This document shows, one piece after another, positions 20,721-60,776 of a DNA stretch of 64,000 bases. Origin of the DNA: Paucibacter sp. TC2R-5 (GTDB lineage Bacteria; Pseudomonadota; Gammaproteobacteria; Burkholderiales; Burkholderiaceae_C); contig NZ_JAJIRQ010000002.1 of assembly GCF_025717605.1 (NCBI RefSeq), positions 267,884 to 331,883 of the forward strand, in the 5' to 3' direction. Under the pieces are notes generated by a model, which saw only the letters and a program-made list of their open reading frames with translations, was not told where the DNA came from and searched no databases. Position numbers and translations under genes: made by a program. Each line of letters opens with the position of its first letter. Position 1 is the first letter of the stretch.

Positions 20721-20851
20721 GGCCCGCATTGTCGGGCCTGCCCGACAACACTGGCACGCGACTTGCATCTTCCTGGCTACCAACGCCCGCAAACCGTTCA
20801 CCCTCGGTTCACGCTCGATTCACCCCTGCATCACTGGATAAGGAGCTTTCC

Positions 20852-44084: not shown

Positions 44085-45794
44085 TTAGCCCTGTTTCGCC
44101 GGCGCGGCAAACCAGGCCGCCTTGGGCACAAACTTCGCCTCGGCCGGGTCGGCCAAATAATGTGGCGACATGATTTGCACGCCGTATTCATTGAACACAT
44201 CCTGGATATTGGCGTGCAAGGCGCTCAAGACCTCGGCGCGCGGGCGCGGCTGGCTGGGCACGGCCTGGCAGACCAAGCGGTACTCCGGGTAGAAATCCGA
44301 CAAGGCCGTCTGATACACCCGGGCCGACGGGTTGCTCAGCACACCCGGCGTGCGGTGCGCCGCCTCGATCAGCATCGCCTCGACCTGGCGCCACGGCGTG
44401 TCATAACCAATCGTCACGACGGTGTCGACGATATAGCCGGGGCCCTTGACGGCGCGCGAATAGTTCTTCGTCACCGAGCCCATCACCAGCGAATTCGGCA
44501 TCGACAGCTCCTCGCCCAGGCCGGTACGAATGCGGGTATTGAACATGCCCAACTCGGTGATGGTGCCTTCATGACCGTCAATTCGCACATACTCGCCGAC
44601 GCGGATGGTGCGCGTGAACATCAAAATCATGCCGCTCGCCCCCTGCCCCACCAGGCTGGAGGCGCCCAGCGAGATCATCAGCCCCAAGAGCACCGAAACC
44701 CCCTTGAAGGCCTCGCTGCTGGAGCCGGGCAAATAGGGGTAGGCCATCACCAGCGCGAACAACCAGATGCCAGTGCTGATGATGCGCCGCGAGGGCCGCA
44801 CCGTGTCGCGGTCCAGCCAGCCGAGCGAGGCCTCACCGCGCTCGATGCGATTGAATACCGGCGTGAACAACTTGATGACGGTGCGCGCCAGCATAAAGAT
44901 CAGCAGCGCCACAAACAAATCCGGCAGCGCCCCCAAGATGCCCGTGCCCAGCCGCACCACCACCTGCCATAAATAGCCGCTGAGTTGCTCGCCCCAGGGC
45001 CTTGTGTAAGGGAACTGGCTGAGGACCAGGCTCAGCCACTCATAGCTCAGCAAGGCCAGCAAGGCCCAGCCCGCGCCGCGCACGGCGAAGCTGACCGCCG
45101 TCAAGACCTTGTCGCCCTGCAGCAGCTGGGTGCCGGCCACCTCCAGTTCGGCAGCGCGCCGACTCATCTGCGCCGACAACCAAGCACCCAAAGCCCGCTG
45201 GCCGCGCCGCACCAGGGCGAGCAGGCCAGCAAACACCAGCGTCGCGGCCAACGCAATCAAGAGTCCGCGCAGCAGCCGCGATTCGTCGCGGCTCTCGCGC
45301 GTTTCTGCGATCACCTGTTCGAGCTGAAACTTGGCCGCTGCGGCGGTCTCGTCCAGGGTCTTGTCGCCCTTGGCGTCCACATCCTCGGGCGTCAAGACTA
45401 AGGCCATCTCGCCGTCAATCATCACGATGCGACCCTGCGCCTCTTGCTTGACGGTCACCTCGCCGGCCCCGGTGCGTGCCAGCACCTCGTTCATATACAG
45501 ATGGGTGCGCCTTGCACGCTCGGCCGGGCTAACGCCGAGAAACGGCGCCCTGTAAACCGCAATGGTGCGGTTGAAAATTTGCACAGCGGCCTCCGGCGCC
45601 GTATTCACCGGCGCCGCCACCAAGGGGCTTGCCGATGCTGCCGCCGCGACTGCCTGTACTTGCGCGGCCACAGGCAAGGCAGCCAAGCCCATGGAGAACA
45701 GCAGGGCAAGGCTCAGCCAGGCCACGATGCGATGCAGCCGCGCAGCATTGGCCAACACGGCGAGGACCTTCAAATCGACATTGATGACGCGCAT
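44085..45794 (-). CDS. MscS-family mechanosensitive channel
   Basis: 569 residues. Signal peptide (SLALLFSMGLAALPVAAQ), a periplasmic N-terminal part to about 170 (with RARRTHLYMNEVLARTG), five to six hydrophobic helices, then the MscS core: pore-lining SLGASSLVGQGASGMILMFT, beta domain VGEYVRIDGHEGTITELGMF, and the C-terminal alpha/beta part ending with FNEYGVQIMSPHY. Resembles the large MscS relatives (MscK/YbdG-like lineages) rather than minimal MscS. ATG 45792-45794; upstream open codons lack a signal. Confidence 0.87.
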   Translation of the reverse strand: MRVINVDLKVLAVLANAARLHRIVAWLSLALLFSMGLAALPVAAQVQAVAAAASASPLVAAPVNTAPEAAVQIFNRTIAVYRAPFLGVSPAERARRTHLYMNEVLARTGAGEVTVKQEAQGRIVMIDGEMALVLTPEDVDAKGDKTLDETAAAAKFQLEQVIAETRESRDESRLLRGLLIALAATLVFAGLLALVRRGQRALGAWLSAQMSRRAAELEVAGTQLLQGDKVLTAVSFAVRGAGWALLALLSYEWLSLVLSQFPYTRPWGEQLSGYLWQVVVRLGTGILGALPDLFVALLIFMLARTVIKLFTPVFNRIERGEASLGWLDRDTVRPSRRIISTGIWLFALVMAYPYLPGSSSEAFKGVSVLLGLMISLGASSLVGQGASGMILMFTRTIRVGEYVRIDGHEGTITELGMFNTRIRTGLGEELSMPNSLVMGSVTKNYSRAVKGPGYIVDTVVTIGYDTPWRQVEAMLIEAAHRTPGVLSNPSARVYQTALSDFYPEYRLVCQAVPSQPRPRAEVLSALHANIQDVFNEYGVQIMSPHYLADPAEAKFVPKAAWFAAPAKQG

Positions 45795-45893
45795 GTACAA
45801 GCACCCGAAGCAAGAAGTCAACGGGTGGTGCACGCGATGATGCCCCAACCCGGCGCCCGGGCCGGCCCCGCGCGCCGCGCGAGCATATCGCCC

Positions 45894-47903: not shown

Positions 47904-48767
47904 TCAAGCCGCCGTCGACAAGCCCTGCGTCACATGCTCGGGCAGCACCACCTGGCCCTGGGCGTTTGCGATGGCCTCGATATGGATGACCGGTGAAGCG
48001 CCGCGCACGCCGCCGAAGATGGTGGCGAAGGCAGTATCGGCCGCGTCATGGCCGGTGCCGATGCGGATCAAGGCCATCGGGATGGCCACGCCCGAGGGGT
48101 CAAACAAATACCAACGCTGCCCCAGATAGACCTCCACATAGGCGTGAAAGTCCTGCGCGCGCAGGCTCAAGTCCAAGCCGTAGTCGATGCCGGTGACAAA
48201 GCGCGCCGGCATATTCAAGGCCCGGCACAGAGCAATCATCAGATGGGCGAAATCGCGGCAGACACCGGCGCGGTCCACCAGGGTGTCCACCGCCGTGGTG
48301 GTGCCGGTGGATGAGTTGGCCTGAAAGCTCGTGCGCGCCTGCACCCAGTCACGGATCGCCAGCACCCGGCCGTAGCCCTTGGGCAGCTGACCAAACTCCT
48401 GCGCCGCCAGCCGGTATAAGCGGTCCGACTCGCAATAGCGGCTAGGGTAGACATAGGGCAAGACGGCGCCGGGCAAATCGGCAACGGCCAACTCGGTGAG
48501 CTGATCGGTCGGCGTTTGCACATGATCCAGATCGACGCTGGCGCTGTAGTTCATTGTCAGCTGGCCGGCCTGCGCCTGCAGGCGCAAAAAACGCGTCTGG
48601 CTCAGCGCGTCAACGTAGAGGACGGAGTTGACACCTTGGCTATTGCTGAGCGACTCGCTGAGCACGGTCTGCTGCGGTGTCTGCGCGGCATGCAGGTTGA
48701 AAATGAAATCGCAGCCCGGTGCGTCAATCTCGTAGCTCAACTCAACGGTGTATTGGAATCTGAGCAT
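47904..48767 (-). CDS. Transglutaminase-like protein (cluster member 1, divergent)
   Basis: 287 residues, papain-like fold. Triad Cys170 (VDRAGVCRDFAH), His208 (AQDFHAYVEVYL), Asp223 (YLFDPSG). The beta-rich first 100 residues (Bact_transglu_N type) contain the FIFNLHAAQTPQQTVL stretch. Such proteins are thought to hydrolyse or transpeptidate amide bonds. It diverges from the ATP-grasp operon with a 298-base regulatory region between. ATG 48765-48767 with GGAG upstream. Same family as two other proteins of the cluster, but with low mutual similarity. Confidence 0.85.
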   Translation of the reverse strand: MLRFQYTVELSYEIDAPGCDFIFNLHAAQTPQQTVLSESLSNSQGVNSVLYVDALSQTRFLRLQAQAGQLTMNYSASVDLDHVQTPTDQLTELAVADLPGAVLPYVYPSRYCESDRLYRLAAQEFGQLPKGYGRVLAIRDWVQARTSFQANSSTGTTTAVDTLVDRAGVCRDFAHLMIALCRALNMPARFVTGIDYGLDLSLRAQDFHAYVEVYLGQRWYLFDPSGVAIPMALIRIGTGHDAADTAFATIFGGVRGASPVIHIEAIANAQGQVVLPEHVTQGLSTAA

Positions 48768-48921
48768 AGGGAGGCTCCGTTTTGGGCGGGGCCAGCGCGG
48801 GCTCAAAAGGCAACCGTCAGCCGATATGGCGCTGCGGGGAGCCATTATGGGGCTAGGGCGCGCCCTTGTCAGGACGCACTTTCCCGCGCTGCGCAAATTG
48901 CCCCCGGACGAAGCCACAGCG

Positions 48922-48961
48922 GACACCAGCTTGGTGCGGCGCGTGCGACCATGCTGGTGCA
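48922..48961. promoter_or_regulatory. Two NtrC-like dyad sites upstream of the sigma-54 promoter
   Basis: CACC-AGCTT-GGTGC (48924-48937) and ACC-ATGCT-GGTGCA (48948-48961) resemble the NtrC enhancer consensus TGCACC-N5-GGTGCA. By my count each matches 9 of 12 defined positions; centres are 23 bases apart. They lie about 118 and 95 bases before the predicted transcription start, a usual distance for NtrC. Confidence 0.5.
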
Positions 48962-49022
48962 CAAACGCCCGATATTGAGCTAGCGCCAAAACCGCACGCA
49001 CCAATCAGCACCGCCCAGCACA

Positions 49023-49037
49023 TGGCCCGGATATTGC
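49023..49037 (+). promoter_or_regulatory. Sigma-54 (-24/-12) promoter of the ATP-grasp operon
   Basis: TGGCCCGGATATTGC matches the consensus TGGCACG-N4-TTGC at all defined positions except one (C for A), with the invariant GG and GC at the proper ten-base spacing, followed by T. The start of transcription would be near 49048, 18 bases before the ATG, with AAGGAGAG between. This is the best promoter-like sequence in the window. Confidence 0.68.
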
Positions 49038-49065
49038 TCACACGTTAAAGACAAGGAGAGCATGA

Positions 49066-50535
49066 ATGAAATCCAGCTTCGACGAAATGCACTTCAATGG
49101 CGCACCCGGTGCTTTTGAGTTCCCCGGCCCAAGCGCCCGCACGCATTACCAAACCTTCGAACGCTGGCTGGCCGGTCAAGCCGAAGAGACCATGCGCTTG
49201 CGCCGCGAAGAAGCGGAAGTGATCTTCCGCCGCGTCGGCATCACTTTCGCCGTCTATGGCGACAAGGACAGCGGCGAAGGCACCGAACGCTTGATTCCCT
49301 TCGACGTGATCCCGCGCGTCATTCCCGCTGATGAATGGCGCGAGATGGAAGCCGGCCTGCGCCAACGCGTGACCGCCTTGAACCGCTTCATTCACGATGT
49401 GTATCACGGTCAGGACATCATCCGCGCCGGCATCGTGCCCGAAGGGCCCATCCTCAACAACGCGCAGTTCCGGCCCGAGATGATGGGCGTGGATGTGCCG
49501 CTGAATATCTATTCCCAGATTGCCGGCATCGACATCGTGCGCGCCGCCAACCCCGACGGCAGCGGCAGCTACTACGTGCTGGAAGACAATCTGCGCGTAC
49601 CCAGCGGCGTCAGCTATATGCTGGAAAACCGCAAGATGATGATGCGGCTTTTCCCCGATTTGTTCTCCCAGCACCGTATCGCGCCAGTCGCCCATTACCC
49701 CGATCTGCTGTTGGAAACGCTGCGCAGCGTCGGCCCGCACAGCATGAACGTCAAGAGCGAGCCGACCGTGGTGGTGCTGACGCCGGGCATGTACAACTCG
49801 GCCTATTTCGAGCATGCCTTCTTAGCCCAACAAATGGGTGTCGAGCTGGTCGAGGGCAAGGACTTGTTCGTCAAGGAGAACATCGTCTATATGCGCACCA
49901 CGCGCGGCCCGAAACGGGTGGACGTGATCTACCGCCGCCTGGACGACGACTTTCTCGACCCCAAGGTGTTCCGCAAGGATTCGACATTAGGCTGCGCAGG
50001 CCTGGTCGAGGCCTACAAGGCCGGCAATGTGAATCTGGCCAATGGCATCGGCACGGGCATCGCGGACGACAAGTCCATCTACCCCTATGTGCCCAAGATG
50101 ATCGAGTTCTATCTGGGCGAAAAACCTATCCTGAACAATGTGCCCACGCATGTCTGCCGCGAGGCCGATGACCTGAAGTATGTGCTGGACAACCTGGCCG
50201 ACCTGGTGGTGAAGGAGGTGCATGGTGCGGGCGGCTACGGCATGTTGGTCGGCCCGGCCGCCACCAAGCAGGAGATCGAAGACTTCCGCGCTTGCCTGCT
50301 GGCCAATCCGAGCAATTACATCGCCCAGCCGACCTTGAGCCTGTCGACCTGTCCGACCTTTGTCGAAGCCGGCATCGCACCGCGCCATATCGATCTGCGG
50401 CCTTTTGTGCTGTCCGGCGAGAAGGTGCAAATCGTGCCCGGCGGCTTGACGCGCGTGGCACTGAAGGAAGGCTCGCTGGTCGTCAACAGCAGCCAGGGTG
50501 GCGGCACCAAGGACACCTGGGTGTTGGAAGACTAA
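49066..50535 (+). CDS. Circularly permuted type 2 ATP-grasp protein (cluster member 2)
   Basis: 489 residues. Family features: VIPADEWREMEAGLRQRVTAL, the DVIYRRLDDDFLDP segment, KEVHGAGGYGMLVGP as the glycine-rich ATP loop, and the closing PGGLTRVALKEG with SSQGGGTKDTWVLED. ATP-grasp enzymes of this class (DUF404/DUF407) are predicted amide-bond ligases acting on peptides. The window contains a second member fused to alpha-E. First gene after a sigma-54 promoter; ATG 49066 with AGGAG 8 bases upstream. Confidence 0.9.
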   Translation: MKSSFDEMHFNGAPGAFEFPGPSARTHYQTFERWLAGQAEETMRLRREEAEVIFRRVGITFAVYGDKDSGEGTERLIPFDVIPRVIPADEWREMEAGLRQRVTALNRFIHDVYHGQDIIRAGIVPEGPILNNAQFRPEMMGVDVPLNIYSQIAGIDIVRAANPDGSGSYYVLEDNLRVPSGVSYMLENRKMMMRLFPDLFSQHRIAPVAHYPDLLLETLRSVGPHSMNVKSEPTVVVLTPGMYNSAYFEHAFLAQQMGVELVEGKDLFVKENIVYMRTTRGPKRVDVIYRRLDDDFLDPKVFRKDSTLGCAGLVEAYKAGNVNLANGIGTGIADDKSIYPYVPKMIEFYLGEKPILNNVPTHVCREADDLKYVLDNLADLVVKEVHGAGGYGMLVGPAATKQEIEDFRACLLANPSNYIAQPTLSLSTCPTFVEAGIAPRHIDLRPFVLSGEKVQIVPGGLTRVALKEGSLVVNSSQGGGTKDTWVLED

Positions 50536-50561
50536 TAGACAGGCTTTGACGGAAAAGACCC

Positions 50562-50693
50562 ATGCTCTCAAGAACCGCAGATCACCTGTTTTGGCTCTCC
50601 AGATACATGGAGCGGGCTGTTCTGACGCGCAGCGTCAGCGGCGCAGCCACAACACAGCCGAGCGCGCCAGCGCGTGCGGTGTTTTCGGCCTGA
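50562..50693 (+). pseudogene. Truncated second copy of the alpha-E start
   Basis: 43-codon frame beginning MLSRTADHLFWLSRYMERA, the same 19 residues that begin the real alpha-E protein 145 bases later. The DNA of those 19 codons differs at 8 of 57 positions, all synonymous. After that the sequence diverges (VLTRSVSGAATTQ...) and stops at TGA 50691. It contains the perfect hairpin CTGACGC-GCA-GCGTCAG (50622-50638). Whether it is a dead fragment or a translated leader peptide cannot be decided from sequence. Confidence 0.75.
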
Positions 50694-50774
50694 AGGAAGA
50701 ATAACAATGCTGTCAAGAACCGCCGACCACCTGTTCTGGCTCTCTCGTTACATGGAGCGGGCCGAAAACACCGC
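50676..50774. repeat. 15-base inverted repeat spanning the alpha-E start region
   Basis: GCGGTGTTTTCGGCC at 50676-50690 is the exact reverse complement of 50760-50774, which lies inside the alpha-E coding sequence (codons 18-23). If paired in mRNA, the loop would contain the alpha-E ribosome site (GAAGGAAG) and its ATG. Confidence 0.8.
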
Positions 50775-51654
50775 CCGCATGCTGGACGTCAACTATCAGA
50801 CCTCGCTGCTGCCGCAGTCGGCCGAAGCGGCGCTGCAGGGCTGGCGCAGCTTGCTCTCTATCTCCGAGTTGACCGGGCCTTATCAAGCCCGCTGGGGCGA
50901 GATCGACAGTGAGCGGGTCAAGCATTTCATGGTCAGCGACGAGCGCAACCCCTCGTCCATCCTGAGCTGCTTGCGCGAAGCGCGCGAGAACGCCCGCGCG
51001 GTGCGCGGCACACTGACCACCGAGGTTTGGGAAACCACCAACCAGACCTGGCTGGAGTTCAAACGGATGATTGCCGACGGCTTGCTCAAGCAAGACCCGG
51101 CCGCTCTGTGCGAATGGGTCAAGTTCCGCTCGCATCTGTCGCGCGGCGTGACGGTGGGCACGATGCTGCAGGACGAAGCTTTTAACTTCCTGCGCATAGG
51201 CTCCTTCCTGGAGCGGGCCGACAACACCGCCCGGCTGCTGGACGTCAAGTTCCACGCACTGGAAGCCAAGCCTGAGCCTTCGGGACCTGGTGCGCGCGAC
51301 TTCTACCATTGGTCAGCGGTGCTGCGATCGGTCTCGGCCTTTGAGGTCTACCGCAAGGTCTATAGCAATGTGATCACGCCGGACAAAGTGGCCGAGCTGC
51401 TGATTCTGCGACCCGATATGCCGCGCTCATTGGCGCATTGCATGGCGCGCCTGCTCAGCAACTTGAAGCGGGTGGCCAACAACCAGTCCGGCGAGACGCT
51501 GCGCCTGGCAGGCCGCATCCATGCCGACCTGGAATTCGCCAGCATCGATGAAATCCTGCAACCCGGTCTGCATGTTTTCCTGAGCCAGTTTCTGGACCGC
51601 GTTGGCAAGCTCGGCCTTGGCATCAGCCGCGACTTTTTGAATCCGTCGGTCTAA
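50707..51654 (+). CDS. Alpha-E domain protein (cluster member 3)
   Basis: 315 residues, all-helical DUF403. Opening MLSRTADHLFWLSRYMERAE is diagnostic, with the repeat-like second motif RIGSFLERADNTARLLDVKF at about residues 162-181. It is the usual partner of the circularly permuted ATP-grasp and may form a scaffold or carry the peptide substrate; its biochemistry is unknown. GAAGGAAG precedes ATG 50707. 172 bases separate it from the ATP-grasp stop, filled by the truncated copy; the next gene starts 14 bases after its stop. Confidence 0.9.
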   Translation: MLSRTADHLFWLSRYMERAENTARMLDVNYQTSLLPQSAEAALQGWRSLLSISELTGPYQARWGEIDSERVKHFMVSDERNPSSILSCLREARENARAVRGTLTTEVWETTNQTWLEFKRMIADGLLKQDPAALCEWVKFRSHLSRGVTVGTMLQDEAFNFLRIGSFLERADNTARLLDVKFHALEAKPEPSGPGARDFYHWSAVLRSVSAFEVYRKVYSNVITPDKVAELLILRPDMPRSLAHCMARLLSNLKRVANNQSGETLRLAGRIHADLEFASIDEILQPGLHVFLSQFLDRVGKLGLGISRDFLNPSV

Positions 51655-51668
51655 CAAATTAGGCACAC

Positions 51669-54600
51669 ATGGCTATCCGCGTCGCACTGCACCACCGCAC
51701 CAGCTACCGCTATGACCGCGCCGTAGCACTATCCCCGCATGAGGTGAGGCTGCGGCCGGCGCCGCATGCGCGCACGCCCATCCTGTCCTACTCGCTGACG
51801 GTCGAACCGGCCGAGCATTTCATCAACTGGCAGCAAGACCCCTACGGCAATTACATCGGCCGCTTTGTGTTCCCCGAGAAGGCCGAAGAGCTCAGCTTCA
51901 CCGTCGATCTCGTGGCCGATATGACGGTGATCAACCCGTTTGACTTCTTCGTCGAAAAATACGCCGAGCGCTTTCCCTTTGCCTACCCGGCCCAGCTGGC
52001 GGCGGAGTTGGGGCCCTATCTGCAGGTCGACCCGCCCGGCCCGATGCTCAAAGATTGGATAGAGGCGGTACGCACGGAGATGCTCAGCACGTCGCTGCCG
52101 ACGAATGACTTTCTGGTCTATCTGAATCAGCGCGTGCAGGTCCGCATCGGCTATTTGCTGCGCATGGAACCGGGCATTCAAACGCCCGAGGAGACGCTGC
52201 AAAAAGCCTCGGGCTCCTGCCGCGACAGCGCCTGGCTGCTGGTGCAGATCCTGCGCTCGCTGGGCCTGGCCGCGCGTTTTGTGTCCGGCTATCTGATCCA
52301 GCTCAAGCCCGATCAAGCCTCGCTCGACGGCCCCAGCGGCTCGGCGGTTGATTTCACCGATCTGCATGCCTGGACCGAGGTCTACATCCCCGGCGCCGGT
52401 TGGATAGGCCTGGACCCAACCTCGGGCATGCTGGCCAGCGAAGGCCATATCCCGCTCGCCTGCACCGCCCTGCCCTCGTCGGCTGCTCCGGTCAGCGGCT
52501 TCACCGACAAGGCCGAGGTCACTTTCGTGCATGAGATGACGGTGACCCGCATCCATGAAGATCCGCGCGTCACCAAGCCCTATTCCGACGCCGACTGGCA
52601 GGCCATAGACCGCCTGGGCCAGCAGGTCGACGCCGACCTCAAGCGCAATGATGTGCGCCTCACGCAAGGCGGCGAGCCGACCTTTGTGTCCATCGACGAT
52701 ATGGACGGCGCGCAATGGAATACCGAAGCGCATGGCGAGCACAAGCGCGAGCTGGCCGGCCAGCTGATGCTGCGGCTCAAGAAGCATTTCGCCCCCGGCG
52801 GCATGCTGCACTACGGCCAGGGCAAGTGGTACCCGGGCGAGCCGCTGCCGCGCTGGGCGCTGAATATCTATTGGCGGGTCGACGGCCAGCCGATGTGGCG
52901 CGACGCCTCGCTGTTCTCGGCAGAAGGCAGCAACGACGGCTATGGCAAGGCCGAAGCCGAACGCTTTATGGCCGCGCTTCTGGAGGGTCTGCATCTGCCC
53001 TCCGCCAGCGCCATTCCCGCCTATGAAGACGTGCGCCAGCAGGCGCAGATCGAAGAGGGCCTGCCGAGCAATTTGAACCCGCTGTTCGCTGATCTGAGCG
53101 ACTCCGAGCAGCGTCGCCGTCTGGCCCGTTTGCTGGACAAGGGCCTGGGCGAAGTTGTGGGCTATGTGCTGCCACTGGCGCCGACACCGTTTGAGCCCGG
53201 CGTGAGCCTGAGCAGCAGCTGGCGCAGCTCGGCCTGGCCGCTCAAGCGCGAGCATCTCTACCTGATCGACGGCGACTCCCCATTGGGTCTGCGCCTGCCG
53301 CTGAACTCGCTGCCCTGGGTCTTGCCAGACGAGCAAGAGGTCGAATTCGATCTCGACCCCTTTGCCGAGCGCAGCGCGCTGCTGGAAGCCAAGGCGACGC
53401 TGGACGTCAAATTGACCCATGCTGACCGCGAAACTCAGCGGGGCCCACGCGCCGCGCTGGCGGCGGCCAAACGGCTGGCGCGTGCCACCCTGGGTCGCTC
53501 GACCAGTACCGAATCCGAGCCAACGCCGCCTCCTTTGGCCGGCCAGCACAATGCGGCGCCGGCACCACGCGACGTCATTCACACTGCCCTGTGCGTGCAA
53601 GTCCGTGATGGGCGCTTGCATGTCTTCATGCCGCCGATCAAACGCATCGAAGACTATCTGGCCCTGGTGCAGATCGTTGAAGCGAGTGCCGCCAAGCTGC
53701 AGCTGAAACTCTGGATCGAAGGCTATGGCCCGCCGCGCGATCCCCGCATCAAGCTGCTCAGCGTGACGCCGGACCCCGGCGTGATCGAGGTCAATGTGCA
53801 TCCGTCGGCAAGCTGGAACGAGCTGGTCTACACCATGAGCACGCTCTATGAAGAGGCGCGGCTGAGCCGCCTGGGCACCGAGAAGTTCATGGTCGACGGC
53901 CGCCACACGGGAACGGGCGGCGGCAACCACGCGACGCTTGGCGGCGCCACCGCCGAAGACAGCCCGATGCTGCGCCGCCCCGATCTTCTCAAGAGCCTGA
54001 TCACCTATTGGCAGAACCATCCGGCCCTGTCCTATCTGTTCTCGGGCACCTTCATCGGCCCGACCAGCCAGGCGCCGCGCGTGGACGAGGCGCGCGATGA
54101 CAATCTGTATGAGCTGGCGATCGCCTTCCAGCAGATGGACCGGGTCTTGCCCGGCATGATGCCGGGCGACAAACCCTGGATGGTTGACCGCCTCTTGCGT
54201 AATTTGTTGGTCGATCTGACCGGCAACACGCATCGCTCGGAGTTTTCGATCGACAAGCTCTACTCACCCGACGGCCCGACCGGGCGTCTGGGCCTGGTCG
54301 AGTTCCGCGCCTTCGAGATGCCGCCGCATGAGCGCATGAGCCTGTTGCAGATGTTGTTGCTGCGGGCGCTGGTGGCGCGCTTCTGGCAGCAGCCTTACCA
54401 GGCCAAGCTGGTGCACTGGGGCACGGCCCTGCATGACCGCTGGATGTTGCCGCATTTTGTCGCGCAGGACATTCGCGATGTGGCGCGCGACCTGCGTGCG
54501 GCCGGCTATGCCTTCGAGGACCATTGGTTCGACCCTTTCATCGAGTTCCGCTTCCCGCGCTTCGGCACCGTCGTCTACGAGGGCGTGGAGCTGGAACTCA

Positions 54601-55097
54601 GGCAGGCGATCGAACCCTGGAATGTGCTGGGCGAAGAGATGGCCGCCGGCGGCACGGCGCGTTATGTCGACTCCTCGGTCGAGCGCATGCAGCTTCTGGT
54701 GCGCGGCCTGACCGACGGGCGCCATGTGATTGCCTGCAACGGCCGCATGTTGCCGCTGCACCCGACCGGTGTGCCGGGTGAATATGTGGCGGCTGTGCGC
54801 TTTCGCGCCTGGAGCCCTTGGTCAGCACTGCACCCGACGATTGGCGTGCAAGCACCCTTGACCTTTGATCTGGTTGACACCTGGAGCGGCCGCGCGATCG
54901 GCGGCTGCACTTATCACGTCGTCCATCCGGGCGGTCGCAGTGAGGAGCATTCGCCCGTCAATGCCAACGCGGCCGAAGCGAGGCGCTTCGCGCGGTTTTG
55001 GCCACATGGCCACACGCCGGGGCCGATGACGGTGTTCAAGGAGCCGCTCAACCCGAGCTTTCCGATGACGCTGGATCTGCGCTGGCAGCCGCTGTGA
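51669..55097 (+). CDS. Transglutaminase-DUF2126 fusion protein (cluster member 4)
   Basis: 1142 residues. N-terminal transglutaminase part (1-290): beta-rich start LHHRTSYRYDRAV, triad Cys184 (GSCRDSAWLL), His233 (DFTDLHAWTEVYI), Asp249 (GLDPTSG). The rest is DUF2126 (about 300-1140): RLTQGGEPTFVSIDDMDG, HYGQGKWYPGEPLPRWALN, LLSVTPDPGVIEVNVHPSASW and FRAFEMPPHERMS. DUF2126 has been proposed as a glutamine-synthetase-fold COOH-NH2 ligase. Thus one chain may both break and make peptide bonds. ATG 51669. Confidence 0.9.
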   Translation: MAIRVALHHRTSYRYDRAVALSPHEVRLRPAPHARTPILSYSLTVEPAEHFINWQQDPYGNYIGRFVFPEKAEELSFTVDLVADMTVINPFDFFVEKYAERFPFAYPAQLAAELGPYLQVDPPGPMLKDWIEAVRTEMLSTSLPTNDFLVYLNQRVQVRIGYLLRMEPGIQTPEETLQKASGSCRDSAWLLVQILRSLGLAARFVSGYLIQLKPDQASLDGPSGSAVDFTDLHAWTEVYIPGAGWIGLDPTSGMLASEGHIPLACTALPSSAAPVSGFTDKAEVTFVHEMTVTRIHEDPRVTKPYSDADWQAIDRLGQQVDADLKRNDVRLTQGGEPTFVSIDDMDGAQWNTEAHGEHKRELAGQLMLRLKKHFAPGGMLHYGQGKWYPGEPLPRWALNIYWRVDGQPMWRDASLFSAEGSNDGYGKAEAERFMAALLEGLHLPSASAIPAYEDVRQQAQIEEGLPSNLNPLFADLSDSEQRRRLARLLDKGLGEVVGYVLPLAPTPFEPGVSLSSSWRSSAWPLKREHLYLIDGDSPLGLRLPLNSLPWVLPDEQEVEFDLDPFAERSALLEAKATLDVKLTHADRETQRGPRAALAAAKRLARATLGRSTSTESEPTPPPLAGQHNAAPAPRDVIHTALCVQVRDGRLHVFMPPIKRIEDYLALVQIVEASAAKLQLKLWIEGYGPPRDPRIKLLSVTPDPGVIEVNVHPSASWNELVYTMSTLYEEARLSRLGTEKFMVDGRHTGTGGGNHATLGGATAEDSPMLRRPDLLKSLITYWQNHPALSYLFSGTFIGPTSQAPRVDEARDDNLYELAIAFQQMDRVLPGMMPGDKPWMVDRLLRNLLVDLTGNTHRSEFSIDKLYSPDGPTGRLGLVEFRAFEMPPHERMSLLQMLLLRALVARFWQQPYQAKLVHWGTALHDRWMLPHFVAQDIRDVARDLRAAGYAFEDHWFDPFIEFRFPRFGTVVYEGVELELRQAIEPWNVLGEEMAAGGTARYVDSSVERMQLLVRGLTDGRHVIACNGRMLPLHPTGVPGEYVAAVRFRAWSPWSALHPTIGVQAPLTFDLVDTWSGRAIGGCTYHVVHPGGRSEEHSPVNANAAEARRFARFWPHGHTPGPMTVFKEPLNPSFPMTLDLRWQPL

Positions 55098-55164
55098 ACG
55101 TGGCGGCCACGCGCGCAGAGATAATCACGGCCCTGTAGTCCCCCGCGAACCTGCTCGCCACACC

Positions 55165-57741
55165 GTGCCCTCTCGACTCCTTGCCGGCTACCCGGCCGCC
55201 ACCGACCGCTTTGACGAAATGCTGGGCGCCGATGGTCAGCCGCGCCCGCATTGGCGCGCGCTGCTGACGGCGCTGGCGCGCGAAGCGCCGGGCGTGATGC
55301 GCGAGCGCGACGAGGCGGTACAGCGCCAGGTGCGCGAAAACGGCGTCACCTACAACGTCTACGCCGACACCCGCGGCGCCGGTCGGCCCTGGGACTTGAA
55401 CGTGCTGCCGCTGATCTTGCCGCACAACGAGTGGGCCGAGATCGAGGCTGCCGTGACACAGCGCGCCACACTGCTGAATCAAATTCTGCTGGATGTCTAC
55501 GGCCCGCAACTGCTGCTGCAGCAGGGCCAGTTGCCGCCGGCCTTGATCCACGGTCATGCCGGCTTCTTGCGCCCCTGTCATGGCATGCGGCATCGCGACG
55601 GCATTGCCCTGCACTTCTACGCAGTGGACCTGGCGCGCGCGCCGAGCGGCCGCTGGTGGGTGGTGGCGGACCGCACACAAGCGCCGTCCGGCAGCGGTTA
55701 TGCGCTGGAGAACCGGGCTGTGATTGGCCGCACCTTCCCCGATCTGATGCGCGACCTGAATGTGCGCCCCTTGACCGGCTTCTTCGACAAAATGCGCGAC
55801 AGCCTCAGCTACTGGGGCCACCAATGCGCCAACAGCGGCAGCACGCCGCTGCGCGCCGGCGAGCCGCCGCTGATCGTTTTGCTGACACCCGGCCCCTACA
55901 ACGAAACCTATTACGAGCAAGCCTATATGGCGCGCCACCTGGGCCTGCCGCTGGTGGAGGGGTCGGATCTGACCGTGCGCAATGGCATGGTCTGGCACAA
56001 GACCTTGTCCGGCATGAAGCGTGTGCATGTGATCATGCGCCGGGTCGACGACGACTATTGCGACCCGCTGGAGCTGCGCGCCGACTCCAGCCTCGGCATC
56101 CCTGGCCTGATCGAAGCAGCGCGGCTGGGCAATGTCTTGATCGCCAACAGCCTGGGCTCCAATCTGCTGGAGTCGGGCGCTTTGCTGGGCTTTTTGCCGG
56201 CGCTGTCGCAGCGCGTGCTGGGCGCGCCCTTGAAGATGCCTTCGGTGGCAACTTGGTGGTGCGGCGAGCCGGCAGCGCTGGCCCAGGTGATTGCCAAGCT
56301 GGACCGCCTGGTGATCAAGCCCGCCTTTCCGCAAAGCCGCCAGTTCACCGTCTTCGGCCAAGACCTGAAGGGCGCCGAGAGGGCGGCCTTCATCGCCAAG
56401 CTGCGCGCCCACCCGGCCAACTATGTGGCGCAGGAGCTGGTGCATTTGTCGCAAGCGCCGGTCTGGCGCGCCGATATGTCCAAACAGCAAGGACATGGCT
56501 CACGTGCAGGTGCGCATGGTGCATTGACCGCCAGCGCAATGGGCTTGCGCGTTTATGCCTGCGCCACGCCAACCGGCTATGTGGTGATGCCCGGTGGCCT
56601 GACCCGTGTGGCCACCGGCCCCGATGTGCGCGTGATCACGCTGCAGCGCGGCGGCGGCAGCAAAGACACCTGGGTGCAGGCGCGCGAGCTGCCGCTGGTC
56701 GATGCGCACCGGCCGCTATCGCGCACCACCACCGTGGCCGATCTGGTGCGCGACGACACCCATGTGTCGAGCCGCGCGGCCGAGAACCTGTTTTGGTTCG
56801 GCCGCAATGCCGAGCGTTGCGACAACATCGCGCGCCTGCTGCGCGTCAGCCTGAACTTCCTGTTCAATCTGCGCCCCGCCAGCCAAGGCGCCGAATGGCC
56901 GACCGTCAAGGCGCTGTGCGCGCAGCATCATTTACTCGACGGCAAGCAGCCGCCCAAAGACAGCGCCGAGCGTGCGCAGCTCAACGCATCACTGAGCGAC
57001 GCGCAGGTCGAACAAGCCTTGCTGCTGGCCGTGGTGTCGCCCGAGGTGCCGGGCTTGGCACGCCAGCAACAGCAGCTTTACCGCAGCGCCAGCCAGTTAC
57101 GTGAGCGGCTCTCGATCGACAACTGGCGCGCCCTCAACCGCATGCTGCAGCAGCAAGCGCCGGCCGAGGGCAAGCACTTATCGCAAGCAGATGCGATGAC
57201 CCTGCTCGACGATGCGGCCGCCGCCTCGATGACGATGGCCGGCTTTGCCCTGGACGGCATGAACCGTGACCTGGGCTGGCGCTTTTTGTCGCTGGGCCGG
57301 CGCTTGGAGCGCTTGCAGTATCAGTGCCAGGTCTTGCAGAGCGCGCTCAGCATGGACGCCGACGGCGAGCTGGACTGGTTGCTGGAGTTGGCCGACAGCA
57401 TCGTCACCTACCGCTCTCGCTACCGGGCTCAGCCCGAGTGGCTGCCTGTGCTGGACCTCTTGTTGCTGGACGCCAGCAACCCGCGCTCCATCTTGTTCCA
57501 GCTCGACGGCATCACCAAGGGAATGGACAAAATGGCGCTGGCGGCGGGCGGCTGCGGTGAGGCCGAAATGCAGGCAGTGCGCACCGAGCTATTGGCGCTG
57601 GCGCCAGCCACCGACCTTTACCGCGGCAATGCGCGCCTGACGCAATTGCTGCTGCGCATACGGCGCGCCAGCGAGGCCATGTCCGAGCTGATCAGCGTGC
57701 AGTTCTTCAGCTACACCGGCGAGAAGGCGGCCCAGCGATGA
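55165..57741 (+). CDS. Fused circularly permuted ATP-grasp and alpha-E protein (cluster member 5)
   Basis: 858 residues. Residues 1-520 are ATP-grasp (FDEMLGADGQPRPHWRALL, LPLILPHNEWAEIEAAV, HVIMRRVDDDYCDP, PGGLTRVATGPDV with LQRGGGSKDTW); from 530 the alpha-E begins (SSRAAENLFWFGRNAERCDN) and runs to the end. The ATP loop seen in the stand-alone copy (HGAGGYGMLVGP) is here VIKPAFPQSRQFTVFG, the usual variant of the fused subfamily. Starts at GTG 55165 with no good ribosome site, 67 bases after DUF2126; coupling is likely. Its stop overlaps the next start by 4 bases. Confidence 0.88.
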   Translation: MPSRLLAGYPAATDRFDEMLGADGQPRPHWRALLTALAREAPGVMRERDEAVQRQVRENGVTYNVYADTRGAGRPWDLNVLPLILPHNEWAEIEAAVTQRATLLNQILLDVYGPQLLLQQGQLPPALIHGHAGFLRPCHGMRHRDGIALHFYAVDLARAPSGRWWVVADRTQAPSGSGYALENRAVIGRTFPDLMRDLNVRPLTGFFDKMRDSLSYWGHQCANSGSTPLRAGEPPLIVLLTPGPYNETYYEQAYMARHLGLPLVEGSDLTVRNGMVWHKTLSGMKRVHVIMRRVDDDYCDPLELRADSSLGIPGLIEAARLGNVLIANSLGSNLLESGALLGFLPALSQRVLGAPLKMPSVATWWCGEPAALAQVIAKLDRLVIKPAFPQSRQFTVFGQDLKGAERAAFIAKLRAHPANYVAQELVHLSQAPVWRADMSKQQGHGSRAGAHGALTASAMGLRVYACATPTGYVVMPGGLTRVATGPDVRVITLQRGGGSKDTWVQARELPLVDAHRPLSRTTTVADLVRDDTHVSSRAAENLFWFGRNAERCDNIARLLRVSLNFLFNLRPASQGAEWPTVKALCAQHHLLDGKQPPKDSAERAQLNASLSDAQVEQALLLAVVSPEVPGLARQQQQLYRSASQLRERLSIDNWRALNRMLQQQAPAEGKHLSQADAMTLLDDAAAASMTMAGFALDGMNRDLGWRFLSLGRRLERLQYQCQVLQSALSMDADGELDWLLELADSIVTYRSRYRAQPEWLPVLDLLLLDASNPRSILFQLDGITKGMDKMALAAGGCGEAEMQAVRTELLALAPATDLYRGNARLTQLLLRIRRASEAMSELISVQFFSYTGEKAAQR

Positions 57742-58631
57742 AGGTCGCCAGCATCAAATACCGGGTCGAACACGAGACCGAGTACCGCTATCAAAGCCAG
57801 GTCACCTTGTCGCAGCAATACCTGCATCTGACGCCGCGCAGCTTTGCACTGCAAAGCACCGAGTCACACCGGATTGTGGTGCGCCCAACCGAGCATGAAA
57901 CCAGCGAGGGCCGCGACTACTTTGGCAACCCGACGCGGCGATTGACCCTGATGGCGCCTCACATGACGCTCAACGTGCATGCCGAATCGGTCGTGAGCTT
58001 GAGCAAGCGGCCGAGCATGGCGGAGCTGCAGGGCTCCAAGCCATGGGAATCGGTACGTGAGCTGGTGCAACGCGCGCAGTCCCCCGACACCCTGGAAGCA
58101 ACGCGTTATCTCTACGCCTCACCGCATGTCGAGCTGAGCGCTGCGCTGGAGCTGTATGCACGCCCCAGCTTTCGCCCGGGCAGGCCGATACTGGAGGCCG
58201 CGCTGGACCTGACGCAACGCATCTTTGCCGACTTCAAGTTCGACCCTGCCGCCACCGAAATCTCCACCCCGCTGGAGCAGGTCTTGAGCGGCCGCCGCGG
58301 TGTCTGCCAAGACTTTGCCCAGCTGATGATTGGCTGCCTGCGCAGCCTGGGGCTGCCGGCGCGCTATTTGAGCGGCTACATCCTCACCCACCCCAAGCCC
58401 GGCCAGCCGCGCTTGGTTGGCGCCGACGCCTCACATGCCTGGGTCTCGGTGTTCTGCCCCGTGCATGGCTGGATCGACTTCGACCCGACCAACCGCTGCC
58501 TGGTGCAGGGCGAGCACATCACCTTGGGCTGGGGCCGCGATTTCAGCGACGTGACGCCGATGCGCGGCATCGTGCTGGGCGGTGGCGCGCAGCATTTGCA
58601 GGTGAAGGTGACGGTGACGCCGCTCGGGTGA
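57738..58631 (+). CDS. Transglutaminase-like protein (cluster member 6)
   Basis: 297 residues. Starts with the Bact_transglu_N pattern IKYRVEHETEYRYQSQVTLS; triad Cys190 (RRGVCQDFAQLM), His233 (DASHAWVSVFC) and Asp249 (WIDFDPTN). Overlaps the stop of the fused ATP-grasp/alpha-E gene (ATGA), so coupled. Third transglutaminase of the locus. Papain-like cysteine enzymes in this cluster may trim or cross-link the product of the ATP-grasp ligases. Confidence 0.9.
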   Translation: MKVASIKYRVEHETEYRYQSQVTLSQQYLHLTPRSFALQSTESHRIVVRPTEHETSEGRDYFGNPTRRLTLMAPHMTLNVHAESVVSLSKRPSMAELQGSKPWESVRELVQRAQSPDTLEATRYLYASPHVELSAALELYARPSFRPGRPILEAALDLTQRIFADFKFDPAATEISTPLEQVLSGRRGVCQDFAQLMIGCLRSLGLPARYLSGYILTHPKPGQPRLVGADASHAWVSVFCPVHGWIDFDPTNRCLVQGEHITLGWGRDFSDVTPMRGIVLGGGAQHLQVKVTVTPLG

Positions 58632-58905: not shown

Positions 58906-59493
58906 TCAGCGCTGCAGATCAAAGTCCAGGCTGTTGCAGTCCAGCGGCACGCGGACATGACGTTCACGCGGCCGCGGCGGGGCTTCTGCGATGGGAGCAA
59001 GGTCGTGAATGACAAGCTGTGGTGTAAGGTGATATCGGCCGGGTTGCGACAGGTCAAAAGCCAGTGCCAGGTCGACCTCCGCCAAGCGCGTTTGGCCCGC
59101 GTCCAGCTGAAGGTAAGCCGCAGCGTCGGGGTCGCCCCGTTTGACAGTGGCGCCGCGGTAGCGCAAGGCTTGGCCGTTGTGCGTCACCTTGACATAGGGT
59201 CCCATCCAGGGCCTGGGTTCCAGCGGCGTGGCCCACACCAGCACGTTCACGGCTTCCGGGCCGCTGTTATGCAGACTGAATCTCAGCGGCGCCTTTTGTC
59301 CCTGGGCCAACTTGGAAGGCATTTGCAGCGAACAAACCAGCTGAGTTCCCGTGGCTGCCAGCGACGCGACGGCGGCAGCGCTGGGTGCACCAGCAGGCAG
59401 TGGCCCAGCTGACTCTGAAGCCGAAACTGACGCCGCCATCACCGCCACTCCAGTCGCCACGGCGGCGGCGCCACACGCCAGCCGCCGCCCCAT
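58906..59493 (-). CDS. Exported protein resembling the N-terminal domain of the M35 protease next to it
   Basis: 195 residues. A signal-like region (residues 1-27) and a linker rich in Ala/Ser lead to a beta-sandwich (about 55-170). Its HNGQALRYRGATVKRGDP, AAAYLQLDAGQTRLAEVDL and AFDLSQPGRYHLTPQ align in order with DGSPVPYKGRLIKRAAP, DWVTIAAGATLEYSVEL and GYDLSRNGRYSVEF of the adjacent protease. It lacks the peptidase domain. An inhibitor, chaperone or substrate adaptor role is possible. ATG 59491-59493; 48 bases downstream of the protease gene on the same strand. Confidence 0.65.
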   Translation of the reverse strand: MGRRLACGAAAVATGVAVMAASVSASESAGPLPAGAPSAAAVASLAATGTQLVCSLQMPSKLAQGQKAPLRFSLHNSGPEAVNVLVWATPLEPRPWMGPYVKVTHNGQALRYRGATVKRGDPDAAAYLQLDAGQTRLAEVDLALAFDLSQPGRYHLTPQLVIHDLAPIAEAPPRPRERHVRVPLDCNSLDFDLQR

Positions 59494-59541
59494 GGCAACC
59501 GAGTCAAGCCGCAGCAAAGCAGTAAGGCGCTGGGCTGCCGT

Positions 59542-60576
59542 TCAGGGCTTGGCCGGTGTGTTCTCAGCAATGTATTCGTGGCTGTCTGCGTTGCGGATGG
59601 CCCGGGATGGGTTGCTCAGCGCCAGGGCGCGCGCGGCGGTCTGGCCGTAAGCCCAGTCATCGGTGTCGGCCACCACAGTGAAGTGCGACATTTCATGGAT
59701 CAAGGTACCGGCCTTGGAATCGGTGCCCAGCGCCGGGGCAGCCCAGAATGCTTTGCAAAGGTAGATTTTGTAGTGATCATCTGGATAGACGTAAGCGTAA
59801 TAGTTGTCAGTGCAAGCGCAGTCAAAGCGCAGGGGTTTGGTGGCAAAGGCATCTTGAACCTTGACAAAGTTGGTTTTCACGGCGTTCCAACTGCTGCGCG
59901 TGCCTGGACCGAACCATTCAGTGAAACGCTGTGTCGCCACGCGTGAGTTCTGCATGTAGGTCAGCACACCTTGCGAGTAAGTGTTGGCGCTGCTGACAGC
60001 GTTGTTCAGGTCGGTGATCTGCGAGGCCGAGCAGGCGGTGAAGGTTGGCGCACCATCGGTGAGGTTTGTCGAGGCGGGTGCCGTCCTTGCCGCGCCCACG
60101 CCGCTGCGCGATTCCAACCAGACAAAAGCCGGGGCAGACTTCATCACGCCACGGCCGCCGCTGCTGCCAGGGCTGTTGAATTCGACGCTGTACCTGCCGT
60201 TGCGTGACAGGTCGTAACCGGCTGTCAACTCCACGCTGTACTCGAGCGTGGCGCCTGCGGCGATGGTGACCCAGTCGCTGACCGCAGGTGCAGCGCGTTT
60301 AATCAAGCGCCCTTTGTAGGGCACCGGAGAACCGTCCAGCGTGACGGTGAACAACTTGCTGTCGTGGCGGGCCGAAGGCAGTTCCCAGCGCGGTACCGAG
60401 ATCGCCGCTTGTGTGCCGTTGGTGACGCTGACATTGACGAAAACGTTCACGTCTCCGAGCAACACCGGGGTCGGCGCCGAGACACGCACATACAGGCCGT
60501 CCCAGGAGGCAGCGGACACGCTGCCGGCCCAAGCCAAGGCAAGCAAGAGCCACAGGGCACGTACGATTCTTTGCAT
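59542..60576 (-). CDS. M35-family (aspzincin) secreted metalloprotease
   Basis: 344 residues. Signal peptide (ALAWAGSVSA, ends about 23), an N-terminal beta-sandwich domain (about 25-150), a helical part, and the catalytic domain: HEMSH at 294-298 and the third ligand Asp307 in DTDDWAYG, as in peptidyl-Lys metallopeptidases. Conserved Cys pairs (FTACSASQ; FDCACTDNYY; IYLCKAFW) suggest disulfides of a secreted enzyme. It would cut before lysine if like its relatives. ATG 60574-60576. The related stand-alone domain protein follows. Confidence 0.88.
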   Translation of the reverse strand: MQRIVRALWLLLALAWAGSVSAASWDGLYVRVSAPTPVLLGDVNVFVNVSVTNGTQAAISVPRWELPSARHDSKLFTVTLDGSPVPYKGRLIKRAAPAVSDWVTIAAGATLEYSVELTAGYDLSRNGRYSVEFNSPGSSGGRGVMKSAPAFVWLESRSGVGAARTAPASTNLTDGAPTFTACSASQITDLNNAVSSANTYSQGVLTYMQNSRVATQRFTEWFGPGTRSSWNAVKTNFVKVQDAFATKPLRFDCACTDNYYAYVYPDDHYKIYLCKAFWAAPALGTDSKAGTLIHEMSHFTVVADTDDWAYGQTAARALALSNPSRAIRNADSHEYIAENTPAKP

Positions 60577-60605
60577 GGCAGATCCTTTGAGGTGAAACCG
60601 AGGTG

Positions 60606-60776
60606 TCAAGCTTGCGGCGCGACGCTGCGGCCGCGCGTGGCACGGCGCAGGGCCAGTAGCCCGGCGGCCATCATCACCACGGAGGAAGGTTCGGGTATGG
60701 GAGCGACTTGGCCCAAGGTCAAGTTGTCAATGCCTCGAAAGCTGACGCGACTTTGCCCCAGCACGCCGAGCAGATG
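60606..60776 (-). pseudogene. Orphan C-terminus of a PEP-CTERM protein
   Basis: The minus strand reads 56 sense codons ending SFRGIDNLTLGQVAPIPEP, then SSVVMMAAGLLALRRATRGRS and a stop at 60606-60608: PEP motif, hydrophobic helix and basic tail. An in-frame stop at 60777-60779 precedes it, and no start codon or ribosome site lies within the ectodomain part. The rest of the gene is missing, so this is a remnant. It is 29 bases upstream of the M35 protease start, so its deletion may have created the present promoter. Confidence 0.75.

Follow-up and report, generated by a model that had tools for sequence, protein, structure and literature searches.

Genes for DUF2126, alpha-E, circularly permuted (CP) ATP-grasp, and transglutaminase-fold (TG) proteins have been described together as an amidoligase system, which excerpts of citing papers attribute to Iyer et al. 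(2009). According to the parts of the literature examined, Anbu and its surrounding amidoligase genes are widespread and respond to nitrogen limitation, and no substrate is given there. Here we analyze a locus of this kind at positions 47904-58631 of a 64,000-nucleotide stretch of DNA (the window) from Paucibacter sp. TC2R-5 (genome G000, contig NZ_JAJIRQ010000002.1). Its six proteins, which were scanned against Pfam and whose open reading frames (ORFs) were re-checked in the window, are a divergently encoded TG protein (TG0), a stand-alone ATP-grasp protein (AG1), a stand-alone alpha-E protein (AE1), a TG-DUF2126 fusion (TG1-DUF2126), an ATP-grasp-alpha-E fusion (AG2-AE2), and a further TG protein (TG2). 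Pfam finds these ORFs and domains, including the ATP-grasp of 489 aa, the fusion of 858 aa, DUF2126, and three TG folds, where a sequence-only reading had placed them. The locus is a well-formed example of a system type that is already known, though still uncharacterised, to which the analysis adds a family-wide degeneracy of AG2, a nested dependence on AG1-AE1, and an exchange with the Anbu operon within a genus; the first two may already have been noted by Iyer et al. (2009).

With about even confidence, we propose that the locus encodes a cytosolic system which makes and cuts amide bonds, is transcribed as one sigma54-type operon, and is switched on when nitrogen is limiting, with AG1 as its sole competent ATP-grasp and AG2-AE2 as a non-catalytic partner. 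AG1 would activate a carboxylate as acyl phosphate and join it to an amine, and the DUF2126 domain would be a second ligase of the glutamine synthetase (GS) type. The TG domains (the DUF2126-fused one, TG2, and TG0) might cut amides of this kind or transfer them, by analogy with the amidase of glutathionylspermidine synthetase/amidase (GspSA), where a papain-fold amidase stands beside the ligase. The bonds in question are probably gamma-glutamyl or isopeptide bonds. AG2-AE2 may have been born by copying and fusing the AG1-AE1 pair, with later loss of the ATP/Mg site, and might now hold substrate for the active ligases or activate them.

Distribution, cassettes, and an apparent exchange with the Anbu operon

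Co-occurrence was studied in a phylum sample of 249 genomes and a family sample of 120 genomes, in which counts are species and not independent events. The phylum sample has 71 genomes with DUF2126, 132 with alpha-E, and 84 with Anbu. Alpha-E is present in all 71 DUF2126 genomes and in 61 of the 178 others (Fisher p 1e-25), an association that on its own is partly trivial, since the module around DUF2126 has its own fused alpha-E. In 71 of 71 DUF2126 genomes, however, the best alpha-E match is stand-alone (by score and open frame; partial in G117), and in seven of them the single alpha-E is stand-alone. The family sample contains DUF2126 in 80, alpha-E in 105, and Anbu in 97 genomes; none of the 80 lacks alpha-E, and the stand-alone form is clear in 76 of them and ambiguous in G256, G297, G345, and G354. 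Anbu likewise occurs with alpha-E in 83 of 84 genomes of the phylum sample and in 96 of 97 of the family sample, one Anbu genome there being without it. Among the alpha-E genomes of the phylum sample DUF2126 and Anbu are distributed independently (41 with and 30 without Anbu when DUF2126 is present vs 42 and 19 when it is absent, p 0.21); in the family sample they occur together in 72 genomes, and DUF2126 occurs without Anbu in 8, the genome of the window included. Nine DUF2126-negative genomes carry two alpha-E, and two Anbu genes are seen in some loci or genomes (L210, L226, G246). The simplest reading is an AG1-AE1 core with two optional dependent modules, Anbu on the one hand and TG-DUF2126, AG2-AE2, and TG2 on the other. 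The window genome has a single DUF2126 and, by whole-genome searches, alpha-E nowhere but at this locus.

The arrangement is canonical: a cassette A (AG1-AE1, to which a TG or Anbu may be added) is combined with a cassette B (TG-DUF2126, AG2-AE2, TG2). CP ATP-grasp, alpha-E, TG, and DUF2126 genes are contiguous here, as in an amidoligase system, and stand in the same order in other genera. This contiguity, together with the co-occurrence across genomes, which the sequence-only reading had proposed as a check, supports its view of a real amidoligase/transglutaminase system. In a named set, the best 80 of 593 DUF2126 matches, the gene order of the window recurs in Pelomonas, Ideonella, Thiomonas, Marinomonas, Halioglobus, Marinobacterium, and a Planctomycetaceae metagenome-assembled genome; the idea that the partial doubling is unusual was therefore rejected, and the doubling belongs to the widespread arrangement A plus B. 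Of the 70 DUF2126 loci taken from the phylum sample, 63 show an AG2 gene and 39 an AG1 gene. The seven DUF2126 loci without AG2 are L045, L054, L055, and L056, which form one lineage (f30), L049, and the contig-end loci L071 and L104. Six loci from Rhodocyclaceae and others (L206, L207, L209, L210, L215, and L220) read AG1-AE1-Anbu-[TG-DUF2126], and the fusion was not in the DNA fetched for them.

Cassettes A and B seem to have recombined with each other. The AG1 of the window is 82-83% identical to those of G246 (L046) and Ideonella (L257), whose gene order is that of the window apart from one TG in L046. The DUF2126 of the window is 54-55% identical to the L046 and L257 versions, yet 80-82% identical to those of Massilia and Polaromonas, the Massilia AG1 showing 72% identity to the AG1 of the window. 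Both identities and trees (window vs L197, L200, and L257) give AG1/AE1 and module B discordant nearest relatives, as would be expected after an exchange of cassette B.

An exchange between the two modules can be followed in the genus of the window, represented by 18 genomes; G000 and G261 were searched for Anbu over the whole genome, and the other B-type congeners were judged by their lack of an Anbu-type alpha-E. Alpha-E is found in 17 of the 18. Ten genomes have one stand-alone and no fused alpha-E; all ten loci read AG1-AE1-TG, and Anbu follows next in nine, the contig of L306 ending first. Seven (G000, G363, G366, G367, G376, G379, and G380) have a fused alpha-E with DUF2126, and their stand-alone alpha-E, where seen (not in G376), differs in type from that of the Anbu operon. 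Both operon types were seen in none of the 17 alpha-E-bearing genomes. The sequence-only reading mentions neither this exchange nor the sigma54/nitrogen link. Eight of the ten Anbu-type operons adjoin an ortholog (69-77% identity) of the mscS-like gene at 44085-45848 of the window. In the window, L294, and L308, just a few genes (a 234-aa ORF, one for an AraC-type regulator, and TG0) separate the mscS-like gene from the DUF2126 operon; L296 has the operon elsewhere, and three contigs end short of the mscS-like gene. In L302, orthologs of the window genes 32690, 33660, 34304, 35377, and 35974 are found in order, followed by mscS and the Anbu operon, which therefore occupies the same chromosomal region. 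The mscS-like gene was rejected as a member of the system, as none of the phylum, stand-alone, and named loci that were fetched has a homolog at E 1e-20, and it serves as a positional anchor only.

One exchange event within a single branch of the genus might account for this pattern. As a tentative and rather doubtful proposal, the DUF2126 operon might be a functional replacement of the Anbu operon, both being nitrogen-starvation modules on a shared AG1-AE1 core that were swapped in the same region. It is held at this level because the coexistence of DUF2126 and Anbu in 72 of the 80 DUF2126 genomes of the family speaks against simple redundancy. If true, a GS-fold/TG fusion with a dead ATP-grasp would do the job performed in sister species by Anbu, an ancestral-proteasome relative, and this would tell what Anbu acts on.

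The same distribution bears on protein tagging or turnover, an unlikely alternative in which AG1-AE1 would add a small amide-linked tag, the TG proteins would edit it, and Anbu or another protease would recycle the protein in nitrogen starvation. The near confinement of Anbu to alpha-E genomes fits this explanation, as do its presence within 46 of 60 stand-alone AG1-AE1 loci, the reported induction of relatives by nitrogen limitation (from excerpts), and a protein cluster, its representative combining a Zn-ribbon with Peptidase_Mx (PF15887), which has members close to the genes in 14 of 207 loci and directly beside them in 10 (e.g., L090:5599-6738). Yet neither the window nor, in a whole-genome search with an Anbu protein, the rest of G000 yielded Anbu, the first as the sequence-only reading had stated and the second answering the search it had proposed; the sole proteasome-family match in this genome is HslV, beside HslU. 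Moreover, purified Anbu is described, in the part of the report consulted, as neither showing peptidase activity nor specifically binding its operon partners, and the statistical independence of DUF2126 and Anbu also counts against this explanation. A 413-aa protein without Pfam match also occurs near the genes in 11 of the 207 loci (e.g., L226:18648-19889).

The ATP-grasp pair, TG domains, and DUF2126

AG1 keeps E173, N175, D334, D335, K336, and G389-G392 in all 97 aligned sequences, and among solved structures it matches 3N6X alone, which is annotated as a "putative glutathionylspermidine synthase" (E 8.5e-211). No PDB entry matches AE1 by sequence. In AG2, the equivalents of E173 and N175 are both lost in 60 of 61 sequences of one alignment and in 50 of 52 of another, and the Gly-rich loop is mostly gone, with G389 kept in 7%, G390 in 13%, and G392 in 10%. 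The AG2 of the window has A-D-R at the position of the E-x-N motif. Judged by these residues, the locus has at least one predicted intact ATP-grasp active site, that of AG1, and one of the two look-alike ligases, AG2-AE2, appears to be a dead enzyme. The sequence-only reading had made its interpretation depend on ATP-grasp sites that are not degenerate: this stands for AG1 and fails for AG2.

That reading also suggested two parallel pathways or two halves of one. On such a parallel or serial scheme, both ATP-grasps would be active ligases acting on separate substrates, and each would be paired with an alpha-E and a TG of its own. The parallel pathways are not supported, and the scheme as a whole is slightly less probable than tagging. 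It draws support from the structure model of AG2-AE2 (pLDDT 88, pTM 0.88), which retains the ATP-grasp fold, from positions invariant in AG2 itself such as E335 and W364 (60 of 61 each), from the sigma54-type site of its own that precedes TG1-DUF2126 in some genomes, and from the fact that an altered site is not proven dead. Nevertheless, AG2 has lost residues that are invariant in AG1, and two active ATP-grasp ligases were rejected as the likelier reading for this reason. The company of DUF2126 with a stand-alone alpha-E, constant in the phylum sample and clear in all but the four ambiguous genomes of the family sample, fits dependence better than parallel use.

Each TG domain shows Cys-His-Asp motifs, kept in alignments of 68 TG1-DUF2126, 117 TG2-like, and 4 TG0-like sequences, and the triads thus look intact, as had been claimed from the sequence. 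The TG0 motifs are GVCRD / D-HA / D, and those of TG2 (Table 1) are found in at least 98% of the TG2-like sequences. For DUF2126, the structure model points to a fold of the GS type. Pfam reports DUF2126 and no Gln-synt_C domain in the window protein, and no CHAP amidase in any of the six proteins.

Several points count against the proposed division of labor. The Glu is still present in three AG2 (L095, L227, and L237), K383 is retained in 42 of 52 AG2 sequences of one alignment and in 12 of 61 of the other, and the D334 position is mostly Glu, so that an altered rather than lost active site is possible. In addition, the roles of E-x-N as metal ligands and of the Gly-rich loop in holding ATP are those which we take over from the synthetases of glutathione and glutathionylspermidine. 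By Foldseek alone, the similarity of the DUF2126 model to glutamine synthetases is weak (best E 0.026), and sequence-profile alignment of DUF2126 with glutamine synthetase (hhalign) gives no match. The TG domains could also cross-link instead of cut.

Operon layout, sigma54-type sites, and nitrogen

The features of the locus are listed in Table 1. Pfam E values are 1.2e-162 and 2.7e-144 for the two CP_ATPgrasp_2 domains, 3.7e-99 and 8.7e-59 for the two Alpha-E domains, 0 for DUF2126, and 2e-23, 2.5e-17, and 7.9e-20 for the three Transglut_core domains. TG0 most likely starts at the ATG at 48767 rather than at the TTG at 49004 of the listed ORF, because the domain match begins at residue 82 and the congener ORFs in L294, L296, and L308 have 293-299 aa. 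For AE1, the ATG at 50707 is the most likely start by comparison with L294 and L296 (315 aa), the listed ORF beginning at 50674. The five plus-strand genes from AG1 to TG2 are read as one predicted operon because of their close spacing: about 171, 14, and 67 bp lie between the first four, and the last two overlap by 4 bp.

Table 1. Features of the DUF2126 locus, in window coordinates.
Feature	Position	Strand	Basis and remarks
TG0: transglutaminase-fold, Bact_transglu_N_2 + Transglut_core	47904..48767	-	Divergent from AG1; Pfam, start inferred
NtrC-like dyad TGCGACCATGCTGGTGCA	48944..48961	.	11/14 to consensus; weak; similar in L294, L308
Sigma54-type -24/-12 site TGGCCCGGATATTGCT	49023..49038	+	Ends 27 bp before AG1 start codon; sequence match
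AG1: putative stand-alone circularly permuted ATP-grasp ligase	49066..50535	+	Pfam; putative catalytic motifs intact
AE1: stand-alone alpha-E helical protein	50707..51654	+	Pfam; start inferred from congeners
TG1-DUF2126: transglutaminase fold fused to glutamine-synthetase-like fold	51669..55097	+	
AG2-AE2: circularly permuted ATP-grasp + alpha-E fusion, predicted pseudo-ligase	55165..57741	+	Pfam, model, residue loss
TG2: transglutaminase-fold, Bact_transglu_N + Transglut_core	57738..58631	+	Pfam; GVCQD / HAW / D

Sigma54-type sites were scanned up to 400 bp upstream of the genes, requiring at least 10 of 12 positions with GG and GC fixed, and compared with expectations from dinucleotide shuffles; the two locus sets used share some species, and related loci are non-independent. 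Upstream of AG1 a site is found in 43 of 95 loci of the first set (2.1 expected) and in 23 of 39 of the named set (0.9 expected). TG1-DUF2126 follows with 6/70 (1.65) and 19/77 (2.1), and the remaining genes give 0/99 (2.4) and 0/39 (0.85) for AE1, 0/64 (1.25) and 2/54 (1.2) for AG2, 1/117 (3.2) for TG2-like genes of the first set, and 2/53 (1.75) for TG2 of the named set. TGGCCCGGATATTGCT is identical at 16 of 16 positions in the congeners L294, L296, and L308 and altered in L295, and the ten Anbu-type operons of the genus have sigma54-type sites of 9 or 10 of 12.

Expression data on relatives, taken from excerpts of the respective papers, link such operons to nitrogen. Anbu is reported to be upregulated in nitrogen limitation. 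In Pseudomonas putida, PP_2686-2688 rise 11-15 fold in nitrogen limitation, PP_2685 being unchanged in the wild type (1.12), and PP_2685 and PP_2688 are higher on nitrate than on ammonium. Of two upstream fragments, that of PP_2688, ahead of the ATP-grasp gene, shows a 3.7-fold response to nitrogen depletion, and that of PP_2685, ahead of Anbu, shows none. Expression of I35_5080-5083 in Burkholderia cenocepacia H111 is lower in an ntrC mutant, and in marine metagenomes DUF403/404/407 are associated with urea domains.

On the other side, AG1 loci without a site at the cut-off number 52 of 95 and 16 of 39, and NtrC sites are not enriched across the 95 loci (1 found, 1.85 expected). PP_2686-2688 rise as high in a P. 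putida rpoN mutant (14-20 fold) as in the wild type, the urt genes behaving alike in this comparison, and Anbu operon proteins are described elsewhere as constitutive and moderate in amount, and as unaffected by a range of conditions, nitrogen limitation excepted (excerpts in each case). For PP_2685-2688, two papers, as far as excerpted, partly conflict, one with a nitrogen-responsive ATP-grasp promoter and the other with induction persisting in the rpoN mutant. Because this induction persists, the case for control by nitrogen is stronger than that for dependence on sigma54, and the rpoN result also lowered our favored reading from slightly better than even to even. In this species the operon is probably under nitrogen control.

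A secreted, graspetide-like peptide natural product is improbable. Clusters for such products do employ ATP-grasps and amidoligases, and genes for an ABC-type ATPase lie near in 12 of 207 loci, as a rule at a distance of two to five genes. However, the broad distribution and the starvation-type promoter are more in keeping with housekeeping metabolism, and no precursor gene was recognised among ORFs of at least 100 aa, most neighbor clusters being unannotated.

Three observations stand apart. The first 19 codons of alpha-E, MLSRTADHLFWLSRYMERA, are doubled between AG1 and AE1 (50562-50618 and 50707-50763, 145 bp apart), with two copies in L295 too and a single one in L294, L296, and L308. Directly downstream of the cluster, 58906-60609 (-) encodes a protein of 203 aa that matches no Pfam family, together with a lysine-specific metallo-endopeptidase of the M35 type (Aspzincin). 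A perfect sigma54 consensus match, TGGCACGCGACTTGCA, lies at 20752-20767 (+) near a WYL-domain regulator and a GNAT gene.

Comparison with described systems

The degenerate AG2, the dependence of DUF2126 and Anbu on AG1-AE1, and two operon types that were not found together in one genus open the way to direct experiments on ligase choice, timing, and a natural swap. Among known systems, the rlo operon of Pseudomonas aeruginosa (RloA/B/C) resembles the locus in having an ATP-grasp and a TG-fold gene in one operon; it differs in an ATP-grasp 24% identical to RimK, an inactive membrane-bound TG, and a retropepsin, and alpha-E is not mentioned in the text searched, all as far as excerpts go. Compared with glutamine synthetase and related amine ligases (GmaS, 1-naphthylamine GS), DUF2126 is without Pfam Gln-synt or profile match and is fused to a TG. 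In comparison with E. coli GspSA, the window has a TG fold instead of a CHAP amidase, separate proteins, alpha-E, and a GS-like ligase. I35_5080-5083 of B. cenocepacia H111 share with the window a DUF404/407 ATP-grasp, a DUF403 alpha-E, a TG protein, and a large TG protein and, according to the excerpt, differ in comprising just these four genes.

The Anbu operon is defined by an Anbu gene in operon or genome, for which 97 of the 120 family genomes give a match and G000 gives none. Unlike this operon, the window is without Anbu and has TG-DUF2126, an ATP-grasp-alpha-E fusion with a degenerate site, and TG2. It nevertheless shares with P. putida PP_2685-2688 the same ATP-grasp and alpha-E families, a TG, and a sigma54-type site upstream of the ATP-grasp gene, and the response of that operon to nitrogen limitation, as given in the excerpts, is the one to which we liken the operon of the window.
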